Below, one piece after another: positions 5,549-54,897 of a DNA stretch of 64,000 nucleotides (the stretch's first letter is position 1; the number at the start of each line of letters is the position of its first letter). The stretch is from Diphasiastrum complanatum (taxonomy: Eukaryota > Streptophyta > Lycopodiopsida > Lycopodiales > Lycopodiaceae). The stretch is taken from assembly GCA_029204225.1 (NCBI GenBank), contig CM055092.1, forward strand, positions 27,634,320-27,698,319. Reading direction: 5' to 3'. Below the pieces are notes generated by a model. It was not told the DNA's origin. It saw only the letters and a list, made by a program, of their open reading frames with translations, and did no database searches. A program made the translations under genes and the position numbers.

Positions 5549-8156
5549 CAGTATTGAAGGATTTTTCATACAGAAAACTTGCTTTTAAGGAGAACTTACG
5601 TTTTGAAGCTTTTGGGATAATTCGATGTTTTGAATATAAGACGTATAGAGTATCTGAAGACAGTCGTGAGCAAATTTCTATCAAACTAGAATAGTCTATA
5701 ATGAAGTCCCTTCTTGAATCTGAACTAGAATGAATTTCTTACTCTCATAACAATACACTGTCTGTCGTCTCCTTTGCGTTTATTACATCCTAAATGGTGG
5801 AAGCTGACTGACATGACAGCCTCATAGAATCTATCCAGCAAGAGCTTCATAGATGGTTGAGCAGCTATGTTCAAATTTAAAATCATGCACTTTCATCACC
5901 TTAATATCACTGAATTTTGCGAAACAAATCAAGTGGGAAATTGAAAATCTTGAGATTGAGAATGTATGACTTGGCTCTTCTTAACTAATTTGTACACTTT
6001 GTTTTTTCCCTCTTGTATATCCTCATTTGTGTGGCAGATTCGAAGAGGAAACCAAGTTTTAACTGATTTGTACACTTGCAAGATATGAAAAGTATGGCTA
6101 GCTTGCCATTTACATGCACATTTATTAGAGGTAAGGGTGAAGGGCATCCATCCTCTGGAATCACAATGGTGGTCTTAGTGTTTGTTAGAGAGTAATTGAT
6201 GAATTTATTCCAACTCGGGATGGATGATTGAGAGATTTTCCTAATTTGTACATTGCATCGATCCAAAATTAATAAATGCCAATTGTTATGCCACAAAAGT
6301 TTGATCACATTAAAATACGTAAGGTTTGGCTCTGTTTTCCTTCTCTCTTTAAACAAAACATCTAGGCTGCTGTCATGGAAAGGTCAAGATTTCAATGCTT
6401 TGTGTGTATCAACAACATTGAACTCTAAGAAATGTAGTGTCTCGAAAGACACATGATGAGAAGATCTCTTAACAAACTTATCCCATGGAGGATCTAAGCT
6501 CCTCATTTGATGCATGAAATCTAGACAAGATTTTTCCAATCACTTTAATATGTCCTAGTCAAAAGTAGTGATCTGTAAATAAAATGGTGGGAGGTGTTGA
6601 AATTTGGTTTTGAATTGTTAAAAGTTTTGTTTCATACAGTTTGTTTAGATGAACACAACAATTGATAAGACACCGTGGTGGAACATACCATATTGTGAGG
6701 CATATACTTCCATCTAGGTCATGATATTAACAATCACAGCTTGGTATAGTAGAAATACATGAAGAAACCTATAGTAGAAAGACGTCCTCTAAACCTATAC
6801 ATCGAGAAATTTTGGTAAGGGAATATGACAATTAGCAATAGTACTTGTTTAAAAATTTGAACATATAAATAAAGTACCAAAATTTTCCCTAAACTTATCA
6901 CTCACCTTCACAAACTTTTGAGACAAAAAGTTAAAAAAACATTGTGAGCATTAAAGAGAAAAATGATCTAGAGACCCATTTTTTTTAAAACTTAATTTTG
7001 TTTTTGAAAAAATGTGAAAATTTTGAATGTTAAATTTATAAGTACAATTAAAAAATACAAATATGTAACAACTTAAACTATCAGTTATTTATTTATAGTT
7101 TTATATTAAGCAAATTCCAATGTAATTATTGATTTAAAAAATTTCAAAATAATTTCAAGTTTTCAAATTTTAGAATGTTAAAATTTGAAAAACAACTATG
7201 AATTAAAGTTATTTGAATAGTTTCAAATTTCTAAGATCTACTTATATGTCAAAGAAAATCTAAAAACATATATATTTAACCTATTTAAAACTAATTATAA
7301 TGGCAAGAACATTTAATAACTTCAAATTGTTTGTTTTGAATAACGAAGATTAGATTAAAATTAAAAAGCTTATGAAATTTTGCTATTTGGAAGTTAAAAG
7401 TGCAACAAGACTTTCAACTTAAATTTCACTACACATTTGAAACTCATGCCTTATTGGAAAATGCTTTCAAACATATCACTTTTCTCAAATCTACAAGAAA
7501 ATTCTATTTATAGCACACTCCACAATGTTTGTGAATTCTCAAACTACTCTTATGTTTAAATTCAAATTTAAAATTTTAGAATTGATTTTTTTAGTATTTA
7601 ATATTTAATATTAAGCTTGAGATTTTTAAAATTTTAATATCTCAATCTAATTTTGAGTTTAATATATCTAAAATATTAAATCTTGAAAATTTGAAAATTT
7701 GAAAATTGAAATTTTGTTTTTTGAGTTTTGAAATTTTTAAATTTTTTGAAAATTTGAAATTGTGATTTAAAGAAAAATGAAGTTTTTTTTTTTTTAAAGT
7801 TTTCAATTTTCAAATTTTCAAATTTCTAAATATCAAATAATAAATATTTTTATTTTTAGGTTCTTAATATTTTAATATTTATTTTCGACTCAAGCATCAC
7901 AAAAAATATTGTGAAGAGGTGATTTGCTATGCCAGAAATAGCGAAAAGCACTTGTTTTTGCTGTGCTTGGCAAAGCACCTCTTTGCTACACCTCTTCGCT
8001 ATGCTCATAACAAAACCATAGCAAAGAGGTGAAGAGATGATTGATTATTCAGAAGAGTAAAATAAATTTTTTAAGAAATTGAAACTATAAAAAAATAAAA
8101 AAAACCTAGGATTCAAAAATCATTATGTTCCCAAAACTTTATCAAGTAAAACTTAC
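5549..8156. other. Gene-free AT-rich stretch downstream of EFG1
   Basis: No coding region or recognisable mobile element was found. The first few hundred bases probably include the EFG1 3' untranslated region. From about 6840 to 7880 the sequence is extremely AT-rich with many A and T homopolymers and repeated AAATTTGAAAATTT-like words, typical of old, decayed intergenic DNA. A hairpin region near 7911-8036 is listed separately. The open frames here are short and show no family motifs. Confidence 0.5.
7976..8031. repeat. Inverted repeat with related GAAGAGGTG words
   Basis: CACCTCTTTGCT (7976-7987) is the exact reverse complement of AGCAAAGAGGTG (8020-8031), separated by 32 bases. Related copies lie beside it: GAAGAGGTGATTTGCTATG from about 7913, and ACCTCTTCGCTATG in the loop. 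The cluster may be the end of a small inverted-repeat transposon, but no target-site duplication was identified. Confidence 0.5.
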
Positions 8157-9376
8157 CACATCATGTTTTCAGCTCCATGGGTGTGCTCTTTTGAAGATGC
8201 CACCAACACTGATGCTGTCTGTGCAGCATTGTGAAAAACAATGAATCTCCATAAACCGTCGTCAATACCTTGAAATCTGCAACCATCTTTGATATCTGTT
8301 TAAATGTAAATGTTTTTTCATCATTGATAGAATTCGGCAATCAAAATCCATAAGGAATATTAGCAATTGCAAGGCTGTAATCCTTCCGGGGCAGAATAGA
8401 TATCATCTCTTGTACATCTCCAACATAGACTTTATAGTAAAGAGGGTTTATTGTGTGATCATTATTCATAAATGTTTTTAATTCTTCAGACAGGGCATGG
8501 ATGTTTCTTTCTTGGCTGGGAATTTTGCAGGATCCACTAAGACTATGAATGGAACTAGAATGGCATGAGGATTAACTTTCATTTTTTTTTATTAAATTTG
8601 AAACATGCACATTATGAGGCGCCCGTACTTCGAGAGGTCTTCGCTGTGTACCTGGATCAACAAGTGGTCTATGAATTCTAGAAATTGGCAACTAAAAAAT
8701 ACCCAGGTTTTCTTCACTTTCTTCTTCAAATGAGCTGTGCTCTTTAGTTTATTCTTCTTTTTTGTTTTCTTTTGGTGGTCGTTTCTTTGATTTCTTGGAT
8801 CTGCACTTTCTTCTTGCACCTTGGTCTTCATTTTCTTAGGAGGTTCTTCATTGGCCGTAGCCTTTTCTTTGACGATCCATCCTCTATTGCAGGGGGTTCC
8901 AATGCAACTTCCTTGCTCACAAATGGACCAAGGCTGACGACCATATTAGTATAGTTAGATAATCATCGTGATAACATCGATGGAGAGCATAAATCAAATC
9001 AGCAAAGTTTCTCATTCATTGCAAACAATATCTTTGCTTTCTTTTGATTATCCAGTGTATCTAAATCATCCTCTCTTTCATAATCCACCCATGACACTGG
9101 GCCACAACATTTAGAATCTTTCATCTCTAGCTCGGTGATTGGCTTTCGACACATATAAAGCTTAATGCCATCTTCCTGATTATACTTGACGGCCCACTCA
9201 TAATTGAGACATCTGGACTTCACAGGTTTGGACACTCGAGGAGGGTCAGTGATTTTTTTTGATGGATCTTTCCTTGGAGGAGTCTGGGAATCATCCTCAT
9301 CTTGTTGACCAAACTTGAATTGGATGCGCTTTTGGGTATTGCTAGTATGCATCATTGTTATTTTCAAAAATGACAT
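8157..9376 (-). pseudogene. Beta-class DNA amino-methyltransferase-like gene, copy A (5' part, decayed)
   Basis: Reading leftwards on the minus strand, an open block 9376-8999 (125 aa) carries the family's N-terminal domain: WAVKYNQEDGIKLYMC, then SKCCG and WVDYE. A Lys-rich linker follows, then RRPLEVRAPHNVHVSNL, a one-base slip in a poly(A) tract near 8585, and NPHAILVPFIVLVDP. Further on come YYKVYVGDV, YSLAIANIPYGF (motif IV-like, NIPYG at 8347-8361) and FHNAAQTASVLVASS, ending in ATGTG followed by a GTAAG donor at 8156. The exon with the SAM-binding FxGxG motif is missing. The same blocks in the same order occur in copy B (10.1-11.2 kb) and copy C (43.9 kb). Stops and slips show that this copy is dead. 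N6-adenine and N4-cytosine specificity cannot be separated here. Confidence 0.65.
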
Positions 9377-9485
9377 AGATGCAAGGCAATAAATCTCAAA
9401 TCATAAAAAATAGTCAACAATGTATCACCTATGCTAAAAATACATTAAAAAATGCGTGATTTAGGCCATTTTGCATTCAGAATTT

Positions 9486-9658
9486 CGATACGATGTATCG
9501 TAATTCATGTTACAATCTTCATTATTTCTCATTACTTCAAGTTAAATAACAAACAAAATGCCAGAGTCCAACGTATGCGAAGGACAATAAATCGACATGA
9601 AGACATATCCTAATTTAACATAAACCAAAGTTGATCTGAGATAGTGATACGACGTATC
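9486..9658. repeat. Palindromes of the CGATAC...GTATCG type between methyltransferase copies
   Basis: CGATACGATGTATCG (9486-9500) and GATACGACGTATC (9646-9658) are near-perfect palindromes with 6-bp arms, 160 bp apart, lying between copies B and A of the methyltransferase-like gene. They resemble the TCGATGCAGTGCATCGA-type words upstream of copy C at 43.26-43.66 kb. Such repeated short palindromes are typical of subterminal regions of some DNA transposons. Confidence 0.5.
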
Positions 9659-9739
9659 GAGATCTTTGTTCACTACAAATCAATATCCAGCAACATATAT
9701 TCCCTAATGTATCAAGGAATATCTAGTAACATGTCAAGT

Positions 9740-11200
9740 AAGACCTTCTCAGCTGATTGAGAGGCTTGCCCATCATCAACGACATCAGTAGCCCTATTAG
9801 TGAAATCTTGAGGGGGCTCATTGATATCATCTCTCAACCAACTAGCTCCCCTTCTTCGTTTAGTAATGAGGGAACCGGTTCAGATGAGGCACTTTGGAAC
9901 CTCTCACTATTGTCGACTGCTCGAGCCCCAACTTCCTGATCTTCATCTAGAAGTTCTCAAATAGCAGCCACTCTCATCTCAATATAGGTTGCCTGGACTT
10001 CATCTACTTCAACAGCCACACAATTCCTGTTTTACTTAAGGGCACAGTCAGTGGTAGTACCTACAAAACAAAATTATATACGAAATTTAATAATCAATTA
10101 TAAGAACTAAGCTGAAGCAAAGAAAGACATCTTCATACCTGTTCCTGCAAACATGTCCAAAATCCAATCATCCTCATTTGAAAACATATCAATCAACTTA
10201 TTGATTAATCTCTGAGGCTTTTGGTACGGGTTAACCAAACACCTGTCACCCCCTAAGTGTCTCAATTTTCGGGTGACAGCTGGACAAGAAATCACATTAC
10301 TACATTGCTCATTGCAATGAATCCGCAATCTCTTTTTCTCATGGGCATCGTAGTACCCCACGGTCATCATTTTGAAAGAACTGATTTAGTCGGCAGACCA
10401 GTAGATTTGTTTTGTTCCTGCATATGTTCAATATTCAGACATACACTTTCAAACATTAATTAGATCAAACCATCACAATCTGTAATTAAAATGACATACC
10501 ATACAAGGTGCTTAATAGCATGACATGTAGCTTTCACAGATGCAATGACTGATGACGACTGAGCCACGCTATGAAAATCACACATCTCCATAAAGAAGAT
10601 GTTGTCAAGACAGCAAAATCGGTTACCAGCTTCATTATTTGAGGGTAAGGAAATGGGTTCAAGTCATTAATAGAGCCAGGCATTTTGAAACCATATGGAA
10701 TATCCGCAATGGCAAGAGTATACTCATGCTTTGGGACATCGTCCAGCAATTTTGAGACATAAGAATAAACAATCTAATAGGTAAATGTCCTCATCGGATC
10801 CAAAAGACAAGTGAAGATTTTATAATCTTCGGACATTGGCGGGAGGGAATCTTTTAACTGAATCCTCATTCGTTCTTCCTTAGCCCTCTGTATATGCGAC
10901 AGAAAGTTTGGAGGGCAATCCAAGTCCTCTCCTACCTTTGCCTTCTTAGGATGTAAGACCACAACAACAGATGTATATGCCTAATCATACATTATAAAGA
11001 GCTCACACAAAAGATAAATATGGTTTAGTGCGTCCCATATAGGAATGATCATCACAAATACTGATGGGGCGCGTCGATTCAATATCGCAAGGAAAAAGAA
11101 TCTTAAAATCATGACGACATTATGAATATTTCTCTGATATGTATGGCCTATCCCAATCAATCTCAGCCATACATTTGTCAAGAAAAGAATTGAAGTTTGG
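9740..11200 (-). pseudogene. Beta-class DNA amino-methyltransferase-like gene, copy B, with both catalytic motifs and two introns
   Basis: Minus strand, three exon pieces: about 11200-10500, 10417-10139 and 10060 to about 9740. Exon 1 includes FLDKCMAEIDWDRPYIS, RPISICDDHSYMGR and YTLAIADIPYGFKMPGSIND (motif IV-like, DIPYG at 10690-10704). Exon 2 includes TVGYYDAHEKKR, CPAVTRKLRHLGGDR, NPYQKPQRLINKLI and WILDMFAGTG (SAM-binding motif I). Its GT donor interrupts the final Gly codon, and exon 3 resumes as TTTDCALK, NRNCVAVEVDEVQATYI. Motif IV before motif I is the beta-class order of N6-adenine/N4-cytosine DNA methyltransferases. The usual DPPY reads DIPY, so activity is uncertain. At least four in-frame stops and shifts exist (TAG after MRTFTY, TAA after ALK, TGA after MRVAAI, a frame change in exon 2). 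The N-terminal domain of copy A is absent. Both introns have GT-AG ends, so this is a nuclear gene, not organellar or contaminating bacterial DNA. Confidence 0.7.
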
Positions 11201-13084: not shown

Positions 13085-16000
13085 ATGGATTCCCAAGGGA
13101 AAGCCAGTCCCATCATGGACAAGCTTGATGGAGCAAATTACCATCTGTGAAAATTTAAGATAAAAACTGTACTAATGTCTAAAGAATTGTATGACGTTGT
13201 TACAGGTGCAGAAGAGAAACCCAAAGCAGACGACACAACAATCGCCAGATGGAGGTTGAAGGATGGAAAGGCTTTCGCACTGATCATCCTCAACATCACG
13301 AATACTCAGATCGGCCATGTATCCGAGGCTCAAACATCGAAAGAAGTGTGGGACATCTTGAGCACACTATACGAAGTGCGAGATATAGCTTCCAAGCTAC
13401 ATCTTAGGAAGATATTTTACTCCCTCAAGATGGCGAATGGTGATTCTCTACAGAATCACATTAATCAATTCAAGAACCTGCTAAGGCAAATGGACGTTGT
13501 CGGATCCATCATAGATGATCAAGACGCAGTGATGCAACTGCTTACAAGCTTGCCAAGCTCATATGATGGCTGGGTGATGATCATTACGACTCATCCAGAA
13601 TTGTCTCTTTCGAGAGTCATTACTATGTTGGTGCAGGAAGACATGCAAAGTCTCATGTTCCTCAGATGACTCTCATGCCTTATATACCAACAAGAGCACA
13701 ACTAAGCAGAAGAAGAAGAAAGGCCCGAAGCAATCAAATCTAGACCAGAAACTAGCTCAACACAAAGAATAGTCAAATCAACAGACAAAGAAAAAGTTGT
13801 GTTGTAGATACTGCAAGTGAAACAACCACGAAATTCAAGACTGTCGGATACTACAAGCAAAGAACCACAGCAAGGGGCAGTCTAATCAAGCGGCAAATGT
13901 AGCTGCAGAAGCTCCATAGCCTATTCAAGAAGCGGATCATGATGCCTTCATGACCAGCCATCAAGGAGCATCTGGCGATAGTTCTTGGTTCCTGGATTCC
14001 GGAACCGCTCAACACATGACTAGCCTCATTGGCTGTTTTGAGTCCTATACACCTTATAGTACCCAAAAGTATGTTCACCTTGGCGATAATAGCACACAAG
14101 CTACTAAAGGTGAAGGCACTATAAGATTAAACTTTGCAAATGATCAGTCTAAGCTACTCTCTAAAGTCCTGTATGTACCAAATTTATCTACAAATCTGCT
14201 CTCTGTAAGCAGGATCACAGATCTAGGACATAGAGTGATCAATGTAAAGTAGTTGATAGGACAGGCAAGATCGTAGCACTCGAAAAGAGACATGGATACT
14301 TGTGTAAATTAAGTCATTGTTTTTCTGCCTCTAGTCGGGATCTCAGTACTTCTATTCATGCAAATAAAGTTTTACTTTGACATTATAGACTTGGTCATTT
14401 GAATCATGCTACTGTACAACAAATGTCTAGACAACCTATTGTTCTTGATCTCGACTATCCTTGCTAAAAAGTCGAGTTACTATCTGTCAAGACTGTCTAG
14501 TTGGTAAACAGACTAGGAAACCATTTAGATCAAGCCATCAACATACTGCTAGAGGATTGCTAGACGTTGTACATTCAGACATTTGTGGCCCGATGAAAAA
14601 TCCTTTGCTGAAGGATGCCAAGTATTTTATAACCTTTATTGATGAATTTTCCAAAAGGACTATGGTGTATTTTATAAAGAAAAAATCAGATGCCTTCAGC
14701 TGCTTCAGAATCTTCAAGGAGCGTGCAGTAAAGGAGACTGGACAGACGATTAAGGCTCTAAGGTCAGACAACGGTGGAGAATATATCTCTATCAAGTTTA
14801 AGGAGTACTGCCCAAGCCAAGGCATTGAGTAGCAATTCATCTCTCCTTACAGTCCACAGTCTAATGGCTTAGCCAAGAGGAAGAACCGTACTCTGGTTGA
14901 ATTCGCCAAATGTATGCTAGCGCATGCATCATTGCCTAAAAGATTCTGGGCTGAAGCTGTCTCCACTACAGCTTACGTCTAGAACAGATGTTCGACTAAG
15001 GCCCTCTCAGGCAAGACACCCCACGAGGTGTGGACAGGCTCTAAGCCTTCTTTGAAGAACCTAAGAGTGTTTGGGTGCATTGCCTACGCGTAGATCCCAA
15101 AAGACACAAGGAAGAAATTGGACTTCCAAGGTCTCAAGACCATCCTGATCGGATATACTTCATCTGACAATACTTACAAGCTGTATGATCCTGATACCCA
15201 ACAAATCTTGTATAGCCGAGATACAGTCTTTGTCAAGGATCAGTTCGTCGACCTCAAAGACAAGGATATTGCTCCAGGAGAACCTTAATCACTTGCCATT
15301 GACACGACAATCTGAGCTTCTGGCTCAAGCGTGTCTATCGTCGACCCACTTCATGATAGCGAATCAGATGAAGATGTTGCTGCTAACCAGTAACAAGTCC
15401 AAGGAGCGGTTCATCAGTCGAATACCTCCAAAAGATCAAGCCGAGTGCACACACAGCCCAGAAGATATACTCTTGAGTCTGCCTATCTCTTGATACAGGA
15501 ACCAACTACAGTCGAAGAGGCACTCAGCCAACCAGACTCTGATCTCTGGAGAGAAGCTATGGACAGAGAGTATTCCTCTCTGATCAAGAACCAGACATGG
15601 TCATCACTCGAAGCTCCTATTGGCTGCAATATCATTGATTGCAAATGGATCTTTAAGATCAAATACAATCCCAACGGAACAGTTGATTGAAGGAAGGCAA
15701 GACTGGTAGTACGAGAATTCACTCAGATCTCCAATGTCGACTTCAACGAGACTTTCAGTCTAGTAGTCAAACATTTGTCGATCTGAATGCTCTTGTCTTA
15801 TGTTGCAATTGCCGACCTCGAAGTACATCAACTTGAAGTACAAACAACCTATTTGAATGGAGTTATACAAGAAGATATCTACATGATCCAGCTCGAAGGA
15901 TACGTTCTGGAAGGTATGAAGAATTATGTTTGTAAACTCCACAAAGCACTGTATGGCTTGAAACAGTTTATCAAAGCTTGATTTCAGAGGATCAAAACAT

Positions 16001-17090
16001 TCCTCATTGAACAAGGATTCAAACCAAGCATTGCTGATTGCAACATCAATTCCAAGTCAGTGCAACAATCCCTCATTATCATCACCTTATACGTGGATGA
16101 TACGTTGCTCTTCAGCAACAATACCAATATGGTCAAGGATTCGAAGCAGATGCTATTTTCAGAGTTTGACATGACCGATCTAGGCGAAGCTCACTTCTGT
16201 CTGGGCATTCAAATCCATAGAGACAGAGCAAAACAACTGATTTACATCACTCAATAAAGGTATCTTCACAATGTTCTTAATAGATACAATTTAATGAATG
16301 GTAAATTAGCTCACTCACTAATGGATCCAGAGGCTTGTATCTGTCAAAGGACCAATGTCCCCAGACTAAGCAAGAAGAAGAGCAGATGAAAGAGTATCCG
16401 TATCGGTCAATACTTGGATCTCTCATGTACACAATGGTCTGTACAAGACCAGATATCTCGTTTGCAGTAAGCTTACTCATCCAGTATATGGCTAATCCTG
16501 GCATTACCCATTGGAAGGCTCTCATAAGAGTCATGAGATATATTCGAACTACCATGGACCAGTGCATCTGCTATGGATATGTCAACAACGACAGTCTTCA
16601 TCAGCTCAGTGGTTATTCTGATGCAAGCTGGGGAGGAGATGTAGACAATCGTAAATCCACATCTGGATTTACATTCTTCTTCAAAGACAGTCCTATCTCA
16701 TGGAACAGTCGTAAGCAAACCTCTATCGCACTTTCTTCTACAGAAGCAGAATACATTGCTGCTTCTCAATCTATTAAGTAAGCATTTTGGTTGAGAAATT
16801 TACTGTTAGATGTTAATTTGTATTAGTACAGCCCTACAATTCTATTTTGTGAATATCAGAGTGCTATTGCCTTATCGGCCAATCCTAGATTTCACTCTAG
16901 GAGTAAGCACATTGAAATTAGATATCACTCTATCAGAGACAAGGTTCTCAACAAAGATGTGAACTTAACGTACTGCAGAACGCAGGACATGGGTGCAGAT
17001 ATTTCCACAAAAGCGCTCAGTGTTAATGCACACAACAAATTTTTTGCATTACTTAGTCTAAAGATCAAGGCATTCACGGATCCAGATTAA
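13085..17090 (+). mobile_element. Ty1/copia retrotransposon 1, gag-pol with many stops
   Basis: The order is that of copia: gag from ATG 13085, a CX2CX4HX4C knuckle near 13803-13843 with a stop inside, protease WFLDSGTAQHMT (about 13985), the pre-integrase block RLGHLNHA (about 14389), integrase (HSDICGP, RSDNGGEY, SPQSNGLAKRKNRTL), reverse transcriptase (YVDDTLLF near 16090), and RNase H (YSDASWGG, STEAEY, ending about 17090). Integrase has Lys where the third catalytic residue Glu of NGVAER is expected, a G-to-A change. About a dozen in-frame stops occur, nearly all explained by C-to-T or G-to-A (for example AYA-stop-IPKD, KA-stop-FQR, TQ-stop-RYL). The polypurine tract AAGGGGGGG ends at 17097, directly before the 3' LTR. 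Same family as the antisense element at 22.8-24.7 kb. Confidence 0.9.
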
Positions 17091-36269: not shown

Positions 36270-37420
36270 TTAATGAACTTGTTGCCTACTAAGCCAACGA
36301 ATTTTATGAAGTTTTTTAAGCTTAACGATAGAATAGTCAAACTCTTCTTCTAAAACCTTGAGTTTTTCAATTCTTTTACTACTACAAGAAAATATACTAG
36401 CTACAAAACTTACAACTTCGTCTACATGTCTAGCAAAATCGCTCTTCTTAACTGCATTAACAACACACAAGTTAGTCCTGTGTGCAATGCAATGAATAGC
36501 AGTCATGAATGGAGAATGTTTCTTGAACAAAGTAGCAACTCCAACTCTAGATCCAACCATGGATGATGCACCATCAGAACCAAAACCAACACAATCAACT
36601 AAAGACAATCCGTTGGCTAATAATAGTTTTTTTACAGCTTCAAATATGCCTAAACCTGATTCATCATTCACATCACGTAACTCAAAAAATGTCACACAAG
36701 GATAGCTATTTTCCATGAAGCAAACATAGATTATAAGGTGTTTCTTAGAAGAATCATCTGTGGACTCATCTATCATGACACTATAATATTTACTAAATTT
36801 AATTTTAGTCCATGTAGACTCTTTAAGCGCAATACTAAGATACTTGATAAAAATAGCACATGCTTTACCATTCTCATATATACCACGAGGGACATTGGGA
36901 GCACGAGATGCCCGTAAATAGATCAGAATATCTTCAAAATCTGTGAAAGCAAAATTATGTTTAGCAATAAAATATGTCGAACGAAAAAGATGTTGTACAG
37001 AGGTATCCACACTTAGAGCTTGCTTCTTCATTCCTTTTTCAAAAGATTTCCTGCCATCCTTCACAACCCAGTTAGAAATCTTATGTGATTCAGACTTTGC
37101 ATGATTTTTAAAAGCACTAAGTTTGATATTTATAGAACCATTTCTACCATGTTCTGTACGATTATTAGGATTTTTTTCACACCATGTATAGAAAACACAA
37201 CCAATGGTTTTATCGAATCTAACCCATGGAAATGTGTCCTTCCAACTAGGACACCAAGCTTTGATAGCGTTTTTTATTTGATGATCTTCCTCTATGGATT
37301 TTCCATTTAAATTAATATCAGTTAAATCAATAGGATCATCAGTAGAACTACCTACTGCACTTGGAACTTTATTAGACGTATTAGGAACATTAACTTTTTC
37401 AAAGCCAGGAATACTGAAAA
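36270..37420 (-). pseudogene. hAT-type transposase, N-terminal half (zinc finger and catalytic region)
   Basis: Minus strand. The upstream part (about 37420-37065) has WKDTFPWVRF, GCVFYTWCEKN, SINIKLSAFKNHAKSESHK, a TTF/BED-like zinc finger. Block 37064-36270 (264 aa) has YYSVMIDESTDDSSKKHL (first catalytic Asp in the hAT core), VGFGSDGASSMVGSRVGVATLFK (second Asp), HCIAHRTNL and LHKIRWLSR. This is the ZNF862/C17orf113-like branch of hAT proteins. It stops soon after IRWLSRQQV, and about 150 residues between this point and the C-terminal half at 34.2 kb are missing. The long block is free of stops, so the split appears fairly recent. Confidence 0.85.
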
Positions 37421-38183
37421 GAATACTTGATCTATTATTTGAGTAAAAATTCAGATCAGTGTTTTTAAATCTCTCTACTCCAGTATTTTAATTGAGAACC
37501 TATGGATCTCACAGACATTATCTTATTTATCTAGTGGATGCTATTCTACTACAGTTTATGATCTGTAGATGCTTGAGTACCATTCTTCATTTGATTGGAT
37601 CTCCAGATATCTTAGGAGACAAACAAGTCTATTAAGATGAATGAATGTTATTTCTTGCATTTGGTGTTAGAAACAGGAGCATGCAACTCAAAAGAGTATC
37701 TGGGATACTCAGAGTTGAGTTTTAATCATTCGATATCTTAATAATTCTCCTAGAGTTTCTAGTTGAATGAATTATCATATCTTAGAATTGGATTCTAAGA
37801 ATAGTTGTACTTGAAGGTTTTTTATTGAATTGTCTACCAGAGTTTGTGGATAATTTCAGACTGTAATTATTTTTACTTTTCTTTAACTTTAGTCTCCTAA
37901 GTTAGGTAATATTTCACTCAGTTGGTTCATGTAAATGTTTTATATGAAGGTGATGTTACTAACTTGTTGAGAAATTTATTACTTAGTGTACTTTTCAAAC
38001 TTGAGTTGTATTCCAAAACAGAGATTAACGATTGGAAATAGATTTATCTCTGAGTACTTGTTTGATATGAAAGTGAGACTAAGGATAATGATTTTCTCGG
38101 TTAATATTGAAAGTTAAAGAAACTGTAATTTTTTTCTATTTTGAGGAGCTTCTAAGGATAGAAGCAATTTAAGGAAGGAAGAA
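37421..38183. other. Unassigned sequence left of an LTR-like repeat
   Basis: No coding motif found. Its last bases (AAGGAAGGAAGAA) are a purine tract directly before the LTR-like TGTTATGG start, so this may be the 3' untranslated end of a decayed LTR element. Confidence 0.3.
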
Positions 38184-38661: not shown

Positions 38662-41159
<2,498 letters not shown>

Positions 41160-43026: not shown

Positions 43027-43889
43027 TAAGCACGTCATTTCCTGGTGAGCAGAGCATAATCGCGAAGATCCTTCTTGAACGGCGGCAAAGGCGCGACTGA
43101 AGGCGCAAGATCCTGTATTGCACTCGCTCCTACTTGCCTCCGCAAAATGAAGACCACCAAGTATGTCCGTAGTGTAATTTAAGGATATTACTCGCCACAG
43201 ATTCCTAGGGTTAAGAAAATTTATCATTGCTTTCCTAGGGTTGGTAAATATGTTAGAAAAATCTCGATGCAGTGCATAAAAAATGTTAGATATTTCCATG
43301 CAGCACACCTTAGTTGTACCACCAACTCGATGCAGTGCATTGATTTGTACGACCAACTCGATGCATTGTATCGAGATGGTATGTCCAACTCGATGCACTA
43401 CATCGAGTTGGAGATACAAGTCGATGCTCTGCATCGAGCTTGTTTACAACATCGCTGCACTTTAAGAAAATATCTAGCATTTTTTATGCATTGCATCGAA
43501 ATCATACTAACATATTACTGGCGCATCAGTTTTTCCCTGTTCGACATTTTGTATCGAGAAACTAGGTAATTGAAGAAGTTCATAATGTTATTTCACCAAT
43601 TCGATGCAGTGCATTGAGCAGGTATAACATCTCGATGCACCGTATCAAGTTGGACACATTATTTCTTGCAGTTTATTGAAGTGGCGAAAGTTGTTGAGTT
43701 TATCTTCAAGTTATAGGATGAAAATTGAACTACATGTCGATGAAAATTAGCTAACATTTAACCAGTTTTAGGCAAATTAATGTTAAAATGACATATCAAA
43801 TTAAGCTTTTTTATGTGAAATATTCTTCTAAAAAACAAAAAATTAGGTGATGAATTACAGTGAATAACAAGTACTATTTTAATTTTCAG
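43027..43889. repeat. Cluster of CTCGATGCAGTGCATCGAG-type words upstream of methyltransferase copy C
   Basis: Between about 43263 and 43650 the word TCGATGCAGTGCAT or a variant (TCGATGCATTGTATCGA, TCGATGCACTACATCGAG, TCGATGCTCTGCATCGAG, TCGATGCACCGTATCAAG) occurs at least eight times, each a near-palindrome. Such arrays mark the subterminal regions of CACTA-like and other DNA transposons, where transposase binds. The flanking bases 43027-43260 and 43660-43889 show no gene. The start of copy C follows directly. Confidence 0.75.
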
Positions 43890-45090
43890 GAGCAAAAAGA
43901 AACAAACACTTGAAAAAGAAATGGCAAATGCTGAGAAACGATTGAAGTTATCACATGATAGTCAAAATTTAGGAATATTACCTGATACACTGATTCCAGC
44001 TATGTTGAAGGCCAGACAAGCCGATCAATTGCCTAGACATTATTCTGATGCTAATATGGAAGATCCAAAAGGAAAATCAGTTAAAGAATCTTCCTCATTT
44101 TCCATTAAGAAATTGCCAAATAATTCTTGGGCATTATCGTATTCTCCAGAGGAAGGCCTCTTTTTGTATGTGTGCAAGCTGAAAGCAACTTCTCTGACAA
44201 ACAATAATTCGAAGTCGTGTGGTCGTATTCAAAGAATAGACTATGAGGGTGACTTTGGTGAGTCAATCTTGATCGAAACCCTTGGAACAAATGACGGTAC
44301 TAGATTATTCTCTTTGGTGGAGGCTAACATGTGTTTAACAACCGCCCTTCCAGAAAAGTTGAAGATAATATTAAAAAACTTAAAAAATTTAATAAAAGAT
44401 TTGCTGTCTTTTATTCAGCAATCTGTGCCACTTAGTGAAGACCTGTCCTCACCTAAAGGGCCTTCTCCAAAAAAGAAACATCCTCCACGTCAGGCTACAA
44501 AAGCTGTGGTTCAAGCGCATTCCCCTGAGAAAACGAAAAGAGTCCTTCTAGCAGCTCTGGTAGTGACGATGGTTTTGAAAGCGAGGCCATACTTCCTGGT
44601 GGTTTGCTAGAGACAGGTGTAATCAAAACTGATCAGAATAAAATCAGGGAGACTATTCAGAATGAAAACTTGGCCTCGTGCAAGATCTTCACCTTGCCTA
44701 TCTAAAAAGTTCATAGGCCTTCTATTGACCTTGATACAGGTAGGAGGACGCTGGAAGTAAGAGCTCCTCACAAAGTGCATGTCACTAACTTGATGAATAA
44801 AATGAAGCTAAATCCCCATGCCACTGTTGTGCCTTTCATTGTGCTTGTTGATCCATACCAATGTCCTTCATAGGAGGATCTGTTTGATTGGTCGACAGAC
44901 ATAGGCCCTAGGCTTCTATTGATTTCTTGACAAATGTATGTCTGTGATTAACATGAAAGAGCTATAAATATGGACACCATCCGACTCACTAAGAATTTGT
45001 GATCCTTTTTTCATAAATCCTTTGTGATTTTGTTCTCTGGCTTTCTCTCGCAATATCAAATCAATGCGCACCTTCATCTTACAACCATTA
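43890..45090 (+). pseudogene. Methyltransferase-like gene, copy C, N-terminal half only
   Basis: An exon appears to start at 43890 after an ATTTTCAG acceptor and stays open to 44610. It reads SKKKQTLEKEMANAEKRLKLS, then the shared N-terminal domain WALSYSPEEGLFLYVC, NNSKSCGRIQRIDYEG, LFSLVEANMC. A frame change in a Ser-rich linker (SPSSSSGSDDGFE) leads to KIFTLPI, a TAA stop, RPSIDLDTGRRTLEVRAPHK, VHVTNLMNKMKLNPHA and VPFIVLVDPYQ, then FLDKCMSVIN at about 44925. These blocks match copy A (RRPLEVRAPHNVHVSNL, NPHAILVPFIVLVDP) and copy B (FLDKCMAEI). Motifs IV and I are absent, so no catalytic part remains. Palindromic repeats lie directly upstream. Confidence 0.65.
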
Positions 45091-48830: not shown

Positions 48831-49327
48831 CCAATTTGCGTGATCCAGCGCCTTCTCTTTCACTTTGTTTTTTGTAGATTTGAGCGTCTTTGGAGCGATT
48901 GAGGGCGATCAATGCTTGAGGGCTTGAGGGCTTGAAGATCAGTGCTTGAGGGTGCTTCAAGATCAGTGCTTGAAGATCATTGTTTGAGGTTGGTGCTTGA
49001 TTTTTGTTTGTTTGTTTGAGGTTGGTGTTTGTTTGTTTGTTTTAAGAAGAGATAGAGAGTGTGAAAGATAGAAAGAGATAGAGAGTGTAAAAGATAGAAG
49101 ATAGATAGATAGAGAGAGAGAGAGTGTGTGTGTGTGTGTTTTTTAATTTTGCATTGATTTAAAATGGTTTTGAATGGTCTTGTAATAGATTATTAGTATT
49201 ATTTAGGATAGTAAATTTAGGATTATTAGGTTTGTGATTTGTGAGAGAGAAAGAGAGAGAAGAGGTGAAGTGTAGATGTATGGTTGAAGATATTGAAAGA
49301 TTTTGGAGTCTTTTTTTAAAAAATAAA

Positions 49328-49489
<162 letters not shown>

Positions 49490-49858
49490 TGTGTGAGTGT
49501 GTTTTGATTAAGATTTGTAGTAGTAGATGTGTAGATAGTGTTTGATGGTAATTGTATGTTTGAATCTGCTTATAATAATAGTTCAATTGTGTAATATAGT
49601 GTTATTTTTTTATTGCTTATGAATGTGACAAAAATATTCAAAAAAAAGAGAGCAAGCGTTTGAAGAGCGAGCAATTGCACGTTTGCACTTAAGCTTTGAG
49701 TGAGTTTACCGGTGAGTTTGTGTTGTTTCAATTTGTTTTATTATTAGAGCTAGTGAAGTGTGCCCGATGTTGACGGGCAGGGGCAAACGATCGTGACGGC
49801 CGATGACGACGGGCAGGGGGTGACGATCTGGGTGATGGTCGATGACGGGCGGCCAATG

Positions 49859-53078: not shown

Positions 53079-53713
53079 ATAGTGGACCGGTTTGGGCGGA
53101 GAGTTTTGTTTCTGGAAGCCTCACTACAGATGATGATTCGACAGGTGAATAAGAGTACCTAATTTTGGATGTCGTTGTTGGGATTTTTATTAGTTTGTAT
53201 TGTAAAGTACACTCATGACAATGTTTGTCATTTGTAGCTTAATCTTGATCAAACTATTAGCTTAGGATTCAGTTCTAGAAAATTTTTTGAACATCAAAGA
53301 ATTTGAGATTGACTTTAATTTCTAATTTAGTTTTATGGCCATATAAGGTAGTTAAACTGCCACTGATTGAATGCAACGCTTTGTTTTGATCGAATGTGCA
53401 GGTTGTGATAGCTATTTTGTTAGGAACAGGACTCCATAATGGGTCAGACAAACTCGCACATGCCTCTGCTACAGTGGTAGTGCTGATGATTTGCCTTTTC
53501 GTTGTTGCATTTGCCTGGTCTTGGGGTCCTTTGGCATGGCTTATTCCCAGCGAGATTTTCTCTTTGGAGATCAGATCCGGTCAGAGCATAGCAATATCCA
53601 CAAATCTTCGTGATTGTGCAATCTTTTCTGTCCATGCTATGCTATTTTCGATACGGCATTTTCCTCTTTTCTGGCTTTGTGGTCGTTATCAACATTGCTA
53701 CTTTTACTTTTAG
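53079..53713 (+). pseudogene. STP-type sugar transporter fragment, two exons, captured in the transposon
   Basis: Exon piece 53079-53144 reads IVDRFGRRVLFLEASLQMMI, then a GT donor. The second piece, from 53402 after a TGTGCAG acceptor, reads VVIAILLGTGL, then ICLFVVAFAWSWGPLAWLIP, SEIFSLEIRSGQSI. VDRFGRR and the AWSWGPL-WL-PSEIFPLEIRS loop are diagnostic of plant hexose/H+ symporters of the STP group (major facilitator superfamily, plasma membrane, 12 helices, about 500 aa). Only about a quarter of the protein is here. One residue is missing in EIRSAGQS and a frameshift follows STNL, after which the next frame reads [19 protein letters not shown]. The 257-nt intron is retained, so the capture was of genomic DNA. 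Confidence 0.85.
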
Positions 53714-53775
53714 GTTGCTTTTGATCCTCATCAACATGTACATTGCCATTTTATGTGTTGTTCATCTTTGTGCAG

Positions 53776-53940
53776 GGCCTCCAGGCTGCGGTAAAGGCAC
53801 ACAGTCACCCATTTTGAAGGAGGATCATTGTTTAGGCCATTTAGCTATATGGGACATGCTCAGGGCTGCAGTAGCTGCCAAAACTCCTCTGGGATTAAAG
53901 GCTAAAGAGACCATGGAGGAGGTTTTTGCTCCCTTTGTTT
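53776..53940 (+). pseudogene. Adenylate kinase N-terminal exon fragment captured in the transposon
   Basis: After a CTTTGTGCAG acceptor the frame reads [20 protein letters not shown], then [20 protein letters not shown] and KAKETMEE. GPPGxGKGTQ is the Walker A loop of adenylate kinase, and LATGDMLRAAV is the AMP-binding region, here changed to LAIWDMLR (TG to IW). The match is to plant cytosolic/mitochondrial-type adenylate kinases, which interconvert ATP, AMP and ADP. About 50 of some 240 residues are present. It is only about 60 bp from the sugar-transporter piece and in the same orientation. Confidence 0.85.
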
Positions 53941-54897
53941 TTTATTACGATTGGTGGGTTTTGTATGGGATTTTCTTGAATCTCTGTGCACAAAGTCTGT
54001 TTTTATTGTCTATGGCTATATTTTCTTTTACTTTAAGACAAAAATGAATAAGTCGACGAACGGGTTTCATGCCTATTCTTATGAACAATGTTGAACCGTT
54101 GTTAGATATTGCAAGAAGGAGGTCATTAGTTTTCTGTGTAACAAACTTGGTACTATAGATTGCTTTCTTCTAAGTCACACGCGTTTTTCTCTAAGTTACA
54201 TGCAATCTTTAATTTTACTAGGTTTTGCATTAATTGCTAAGCTCAATTGACATGAATCCCATTTCCCAATAGCATCTATCTAATAAGCCAGTTTCATCTC
54301 GTGAATCTTATTACTTTCTAACTAGCGAGCTAGCAATGTTTGCCCACCCACTTGGGTGGGCAAACATTTTTAAAAATATTTTGTTTAGGGAGGGCGCATA
54401 AGTGCGCCCTCCCCTCCCATAGGCCCAAGCGTGACGAGCAACTCACGTTGTGCCCTCCTCTCGCACAGGCCCAAGCGTGACAGGCAGCTCACGTTGCACC
54501 CTCCCCTCCCACAGGCTCTATATAGAACATGGTCTTCTGGACATGCATGTATTTATTACTTACCGTGTTAACTTGAGTATTGTCTTCATCGCTAGACTGA
54601 TCTGAATATAATTCATCTCGTTGTGATAAACTGCATATATGCACAAGTACAAAACACAAATAACATAAAATTATTGTATGATTTTAATGTCTTAATTTTT
54701 AGATAGTACTATTCTTATACATTGTCGCTTAGCTCGAGCTCTACACGCATATCTCTCTTCTTTTGTTAACACAGGTATGAAAGTCCCACTCCAATATGCA
54801 TTAAAGTTCTGTAATCGATTTTCTTTTCTACTTCATTTCAATATATTAGGGTTTATTGTAATGTATTGTATATTTATGAATGTAGTAATCATGTTAG
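53941..54897. other. Transposon interior between captured fragments and the accessory ORF
   Basis: No gene recognised. At 54385-54525 a segment with CCCTCCCCTCCCA-CAGGC and GGCCCAAGCGTGAC is repeated three times in imperfect form. A palindrome-like CCCACCCACTTGGGTGGGCAAA occurs at about 54345-54366 (arms TTTGCCCACC-CAC / GTGGG-TGGGCAAA). Confidence 0.45.

Follow-up and report, generated by a model that had tools for sequence, protein, structure and literature searches.

The locus studied here raises the question of what broken pieces of DNA amino-methyltransferase genes, interrupted by introns, are doing side by side in the genome of the clubmoss Diphasiastrum complanatum, and how they came to lie there. 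Whether plants carry 6mA and 4mC is disputed, in part for want of obvious writer enzymes. The window, that is, the whole stretch of DNA that was analysed, comprises 64,000 nucleotides of contig CM055092.1, and a first, sequence-only reading of it had seen a plant gene family of such enzymes arranged in tandem. We argue that the copies A, B and C of the window are instead the decayed remains of DNA transposons whose family carries its own beta-class amino-methyltransferase, a reading to which we give a probability of roughly 0.8. The parts of it which are directly supported by observation are the methyltransferase family, the high copy number, the sharp 3' end, the divergent pairing with a second gene and the third-position bias.

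As judged from its reading frames, copy A (8157-9400, minus strand) is a broken remnant of one lineage of the methyltransferase element. It holds an N-terminal domain at 9002-9400 (a 27% match), a linker, the start of a middle domain at about 8514-8700, and the methyltransferase motif IV exon at 8341-8571 with ANIPYG from 8364 downwards, all on the minus strand; the G of its splice donor TG|GTAAG is at 8156, just past the edge at 8157. Copy B (9676-11021, minus strand) comes from a second lineage and is a broken piece of the element interior, both element ends being missing. On the same strand its methyltransferase exons carry motif IV as ADIPYG (from 10707 downwards), NPYQKP (from 10232) and motif I as LDMFAGTG followed by TTTDCALK. 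Intron 1 of copy B occupies 10418-10499, with the donor TG|GTATG at 10499 and the acceptor end at 10418, and its donor falls at the identical codon in copies A and B. Intron 2 occupies 10061-10138, with the donor at 10138 after LDMFAGT and the acceptor end at 10061, TTTDCALK coming next, and splits the Gly codon of motif I as G|GT. The ordered blocks, the GT-AG introns, the split Gly codon and the common donor codon described by the sequence-only reading were thus all found, on the minus strand, and its claim of spliceosomal introns is borne out.

A third fragment, copy C (43029-44877, plus strand), corresponds to the 5' half of the element, and no methyltransferase exon was seen in it. It contains the start of the divergent partner gene on its antisense side, a minisatellite, the N-terminal domain exon (a 248-aa open frame at 43864-44610) and the start of the middle domain, and it matched 15 of the fetched loci with identity up to 92%. 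The minisatellite (43312-43438, assigned to neither strand) is made of 4.1 copies of the 31-bp unit AGTTGGTACGACCAACTCGATGCACTGCATCG and lies between the two divergent genes, and repeats related to it occur in the presumed methyltransferase-gene intron of other copies (L019 and L024). In the minisatellite region, copy C in addition shows an inverted match to itself. The layout of the methyltransferase gene goes beyond the extent first recognised, and runs from an N-terminal domain, present in window copies A and C, through a charged linker and a middle domain to the methyltransferase.

The sequence-only reading had assigned these genes to the beta-class N4/N6 amino-methyltransferases and had proposed a Pfam search of the spliced copy B as a check. 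The copy B exon alone matched Pfam N6_N4_Mtase (PF01555) at 3.7e-9, the matching exon lying at 10107-10385 on the minus strand (37.3 bits against a cut-off of 26.7), and the hand-spliced copy B, with X at the stops, matched at 1.8e-15 with 57.9 bits against the same cut-off of 26.7. Hand-spliced L032 covered positions 5-201 of the profile in order (1.7e-8). Both the profile order and the alignments place motif IV N-terminal to the AdoMet motif I, and this order, together with the PF01555 match, upholds the class assignment. In a PDB search the best match of the methyltransferase was RsrI methylase (2.9e-5), followed by MboIIA and other adenine methylases including CcrM; the top seven of the best 60 of 529 matches (E<=10) were methylases, and the remaining matches among the listed 60, from about 9e-4, were antibody chains, which we took as chance. 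When two family rows, one of them composed from several copies, were aligned with four phage methyltransferases, fourteen columns were invariant (D, P, Y, W, K, E, P, K, D, D, G, G, T, T) in the beta-class order, and the composite row was 22-27% identical to the phage enzymes. The copies thus encode a beta-class family whose members are predicted, on their sequence, to be N6-adenine or N4-cytosine amino-methyltransferases. It is alike to RsrI, MboIIA, CcrM and the phage methyltransferases in having motif IV before motif I, the NPYQKP/HPTQKP block and LDxFxGxGTT. Unlike its PF01555 relatives (RsrI, CcrM, phage), the element methyltransferase has a long N-terminal region and spliceosomal introns, is carried by a eukaryotic repeat, and shows DIPY in four of seven rows.

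The tested pieces of the N-terminal region gave no Pfam match above cut-off. The middle domain looked ParB-like by eye, and this candidate found no support in Pfam, PHROGs, PDB and phage searches. Since the genome of the window has no Pfam ParB_N match (E<=1) while 11 of 14 control genomes are positive, we do not claim a ParB identity for this domain. ParB-methylase fusions do exist, for example Bacillus cereus Bce_0392 as presented in the accessible part of PMC5512222, and the likeness lies in a domain placed upstream of an amino-methyltransferase, with a middle domain that is ParB-like by eye; the difference, set against that same part of the source, is that ParB_N is absent from the genome by Pfam search and the ParB resemblance is unproven.

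The copies in the window are dead. Copy A has a TGA directly after PYGF and one frameshift, and copy B has three stops (TAG 10776, TAA 10034 and TGA 9959) and at least two frameshifts, near VIF/HSVAQ and before ISSFKMM. It is these stops and frameshifts, not DIPY, on which we base this statement. The change to DIPY had been taken as a sign of an altered active site or an inactive lineage, which is a weak argument, as DIPYG also stands at this position of the alignment in a gene of Klebsiella phage KB2 (L043) whose annotation is site-specific DNA-methyltransferase; DIPY by itself is therefore no mark of inactivity. The three other aligned phage enzymes have DPPY. Among seven hand-picked family rows four have DIPY, and the others have NIPY, DISY and YIPY (one each). 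YIPY is motif IV of L029, the sole copy read from a second, genome-wide lineage, and from its sequence the catalytic competence of that lineage cannot be asserted.

We then asked whether copies A and B belong together as neighbours. They are 41.8% identical over 79 codons, and blastn of copy A against copy B gave no match. Among the fetched loci copy A matched two, L027 (79.7%) and L028 (85.9%), and copy B matched 20, the best being L021 (92%). Copies A and B thus derive from two lineages of a repeat that is scattered through the genome in high copy number, and each is nearer to copies elsewhere than to the other. Searched through the genome (1.74 Gb), the copy B exon was present at at least 150 places, as the best 150 of 1293 candidates all matched, a count which includes the copy of the window itself and a few copies in two pieces. 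PF01555 likewise scored above cut-off at at least 150 places (the best 150 of 1605 candidates, all passing), and the second lineage, of the L029 type, at at least 150 places with 77-100% identity (the best 150 of 2832 candidates). This second lineage is 41% identical to the first row of the seven-row alignment and 50% to the copy B exon. These genome counts are lower bounds, as only the best candidates were scored and the remaining ones are unconfirmed, and a few rows count two pieces of a single copy separately or come from duplicated contigs. Stop codons are present in many of the scored copies, in the copy B exon list as well as in the second-lineage list. Hence, rather than intact, low-copy host genes, we found copies A and B broken and the family in hundreds of scored places, although a separate intact host gene may exist elsewhere in the genome; the tandem host gene family of the first reading is not upheld, as the two copies are so dissimilar, dispersed, closer to copies elsewhere, and of a family paired with DUF7869, as described below.

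To define the unit we relied on 31 genome stretches, read around copies or extensions of copies. Ten of 20 gene-oriented copies share a sharp 3' end, GGAAATTGTGTT, beyond which their flanks differ, with the exception of L011 and L018, which have one flank in common. L023, which duplicates L021 almost exactly (99% identity across nearly all of the 9.9 kb), also terminates at this end, L010 ends about 80 bases before it, and L026-L028 belong to another lineage. A 160-nt query of the end was found at at least 40 places (the best 40 of 141 candidates), each within 2 bases of the end. The repeat is thus a unit scattered in many copies, with a sharp border on its right side between the unit and unrelated flanking DNA, and short-motif searches showed no clear inverted copy of this right end in the loci searched. 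As many copies are apparently 5'-truncated with a common 3' end, retroposition was considered; we rejected it because the introns are retained in the copies, which argues against copying from spliced mRNA, and because the left breaks of some copies (L019, L025 and L024) are internal deletions or copia insertions. A Helitron was also rejected, since the copies lack a CTRR terminus and the base that follows their 3' end varies.

Upstream of the methyltransferase gene, on the opposite strand and thus head to head with it, lies a second gene, the outer part of which matched Pfam DUF7869 at 4.8e-41 in L039. Genome-wide, DUF7869 scored above cut-off at at least 150 places (the best 150 of 2953 candidates); it was found in 0 of 14 prokaryote control genomes, and a PDB search with the DUF7869 protein gave no relevant match. 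In L037, a sub-threshold match to Cullin_binding (PF03556; 9.7e-5, 23.2 bits against 27.9) was noticed beyond DUF7869 at 1352-1597 on the minus strand. In all 13 pairs of DUF7869 and the partner ORF, both lay on the same strand. The partner ORF was divergent from the N-terminal domain in 32 of 35 pairs and from the methyltransferase in 11 of 16 (5 of 16 were not), and DUF7869 was divergent from the N-terminal domain in 8 of 8 and from the methyltransferase in 5 of 5. These five-part lists took in 150 of 150 methyltransferase rows, 40 of 40 end rows, 79 of 109 N-terminal rows, 57 of 82 partner rows and 58 of 150 DUF7869 rows, second pieces of one copy and weaker DUF7869 rows being left out. Only two places in these lists have the five parts complete and in order, C11:49182633-49187401 and C11:47817893-47825405, and their common right flank marks them as one insertion duplicated.

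Similar pairing was observed in the second lineage. When its 150 methyltransferase places were compared with 243 DUF7869 places, merged from 300 rows, the best-scored places gave 17 pairs within 12 kb, of which 15 were divergent and 2 were not; the spacing was 5.1-6.4 kb in 12 of the divergent pairs and 1.7-2.0 kb in the other three. Methyltransferase places shifted by 0.2-3 Mb in 1000 trials gave a mean of 0.30 pairs and a maximum of 4. With the PF01555 places (150 of 150 rows in both lists) we obtained 4 pairs within 12 kb, 3 of them divergent (shifted mean 0.18, maximum 2), and a further test, which overlaps this one, of 121 of 150 PF01555 rows with 150 DUF7869 rows gave 3 pairs within 15 kb, 2 of them divergent. 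The independent pairs are fewer than those counted because of duplicated or alternative contigs among the rows, and a few second-lineage pairs are probably duplicates of each other. The divergent pairing of methyltransferase and DUF7869 is thus not peculiar to the copy B lineage.

Furthermore, we analyzed at which codon positions the copies differ from each other. In the methyltransferase exon the third position took 49% of the differences in pairs less than 10% diverged, 60% in those 10-20% diverged, and 50% and 46% in more diverged pairs, and in the motif IV, middle and N-terminal exons its share was 41-51%. In a 3' UTR control cut into triplets (one of 10 copies, L017, was omitted) it was 31-32%, with 0.36-0.38 at position 1. 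DUF7869 gave 0.35, no excess, in only 3 pairs with 62 differences. In this comparison all pieces of a locus were combined into one row, so that copies A, B and C of the window share a single row, and duplicates that are almost identical were retained; the pairs are not independent of each other. In every bin of the methyltransferase gene, however, the excess points in one direction. From this excess, set against the 3' UTR control, we conclude that the source copies were probably under selection as protein-coding genes while the copies in between decayed.

These results bear on three other explanations. The copies may descend from a host amino-methyltransferase gene family that was spread as pseudogenes by segmental duplication, perhaps resembling the Marchantia 4mC enzyme. 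The retained introns and the third-position bias would fit such an origin, and some copies are indeed segmental duplicates (L021/L023 and the C11 pair); the accessible part of PMC8885841 also mentions a liverwort 4mC methyltransferase of bacterial origin. We nevertheless consider this origin distinctly unlikely in view of 300 scored methyltransferase places in two lineages with thousands of candidates, a sharp common 3' end against unrelated flanks, and a head-to-head pairing with DUF7869 that recurs in both lineages.

It is also conceivable, though unlikely, that a DUF7869 element captured the methyltransferase gene once and amplified it as passive cargo, without using it. Transposons are known to capture gene pieces together with their introns, and the stops in many scored copies as well as the YIPY of L029 agree with an unused gene; against it, two lineages that are 41% to 50% identical have kept the same arrangement, and copies differ from each other preferentially at third codon positions, unlike the 3' UTR control. 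A third explanation, in which the copies are pieces of a large DNA virus or a plasmid-like element that had integrated with a methyltransferase and a DUF7869 gene, appears very improbable. The PF01555 family is indeed common in phages (788 of 50,697 records at E<=0.01), but nothing larger than the two genes was seen as a recurring unit, reading by eye revealed no hallmark gene of viruses, and short-pattern scans of IMG/VR found no relative of either gene. Scans of prokaryote genomes found none either, and both kinds of scan miss distant relatives. A plasmid search gave one weak match.

Under the transposon reading, the full element would consist of two head-to-head genes, one for the DUF7869 protein, most likely the transposase that moves the element, and one for a long protein with the N-terminal domain, the charged linker, the middle domain and a C-terminal beta-class amino-methyltransferase, putatively acting on N6-adenine or N4-cytosine. 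The methyltransferase would be a working, selected part of the element, marking the DNA of the element or the DNA around it, and such marking could have regulated transposition or let the element evade 5mC silencing by the host. The element may thus once have chemically marked DNA itself. More tentatively, there could be a superfamily of eukaryotic DNA transposons whose standing second gene is an amino-methyltransferase writing 6mA or 4mC on transposon DNA, which would provide the element with its own epigenetic mark, apart from the 5mC machinery of the host, and the minisatellite between the genes may be the site where this mark acts; this wider proposition we regard as possible rather than likely.

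To our knowledge, most eukaryotic transposons so far described with a DNA methyltransferase are retrotransposons with a C5 enzyme. If the transposon reading is true, it would add a new enzyme class and a new element class to the transposon-borne methyltransferases and give a likely role to DUF7869, a domain of unknown function, and the hundreds of scored and thousands of candidate places would offer a concrete candidate writer together with its target DNA for 6mA or 4mC. As described in the accessible part of PMC5890265, C5 cytosine methyltransferases were acquired by retrotransposons in dinoflagellates and charophytes; these too are mobile elements with a DNA methyltransferase, and differ from the present family both in enzyme class (C5) and in element class (retrotransposon). 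N4CMT of bdelloid rotifers is, in the accessible part of PMC8885841, a host gene with a chromodomain; it shares with our family the Pfam domain, the permuted type, the introns and a eukaryotic host, and is set apart, by that description, from a methyltransferase that sits in a high-copy unit with DUF7869. Among the papers listed in a literature search that covers few subscription journals, judged by title and start of abstract, none reports an amino-methyltransferase on a DNA transposon, and the same literature gave no paper on DUF7869 or on DN4MT1.

The remainder of the window carries other repeats and gene pieces. Beside copy B, at 13100-17090, lies a decayed Ty1/copia-like retrotransposon with gag, integrase and reverse transcriptase frames recognised by eye, and copia pieces also flank copy C and interrupt L025 as well as the L024/L034 locus on its left side. 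A 405-aa open frame at 36270-37487 on the minus strand (MIDESTDDSSKKHLIIY) resembles, by eye, a hAT-type transposase. Long (TC)n/(GA)n microsatellites at 39502-39799 and 49238-49507 give rise to spurious open frames that encode SL or ER repeats, and at 53390-54047 on the plus strand there are fragments which, by eye, resemble a sugar transporter exon and the N-terminus of an adenylate kinase.
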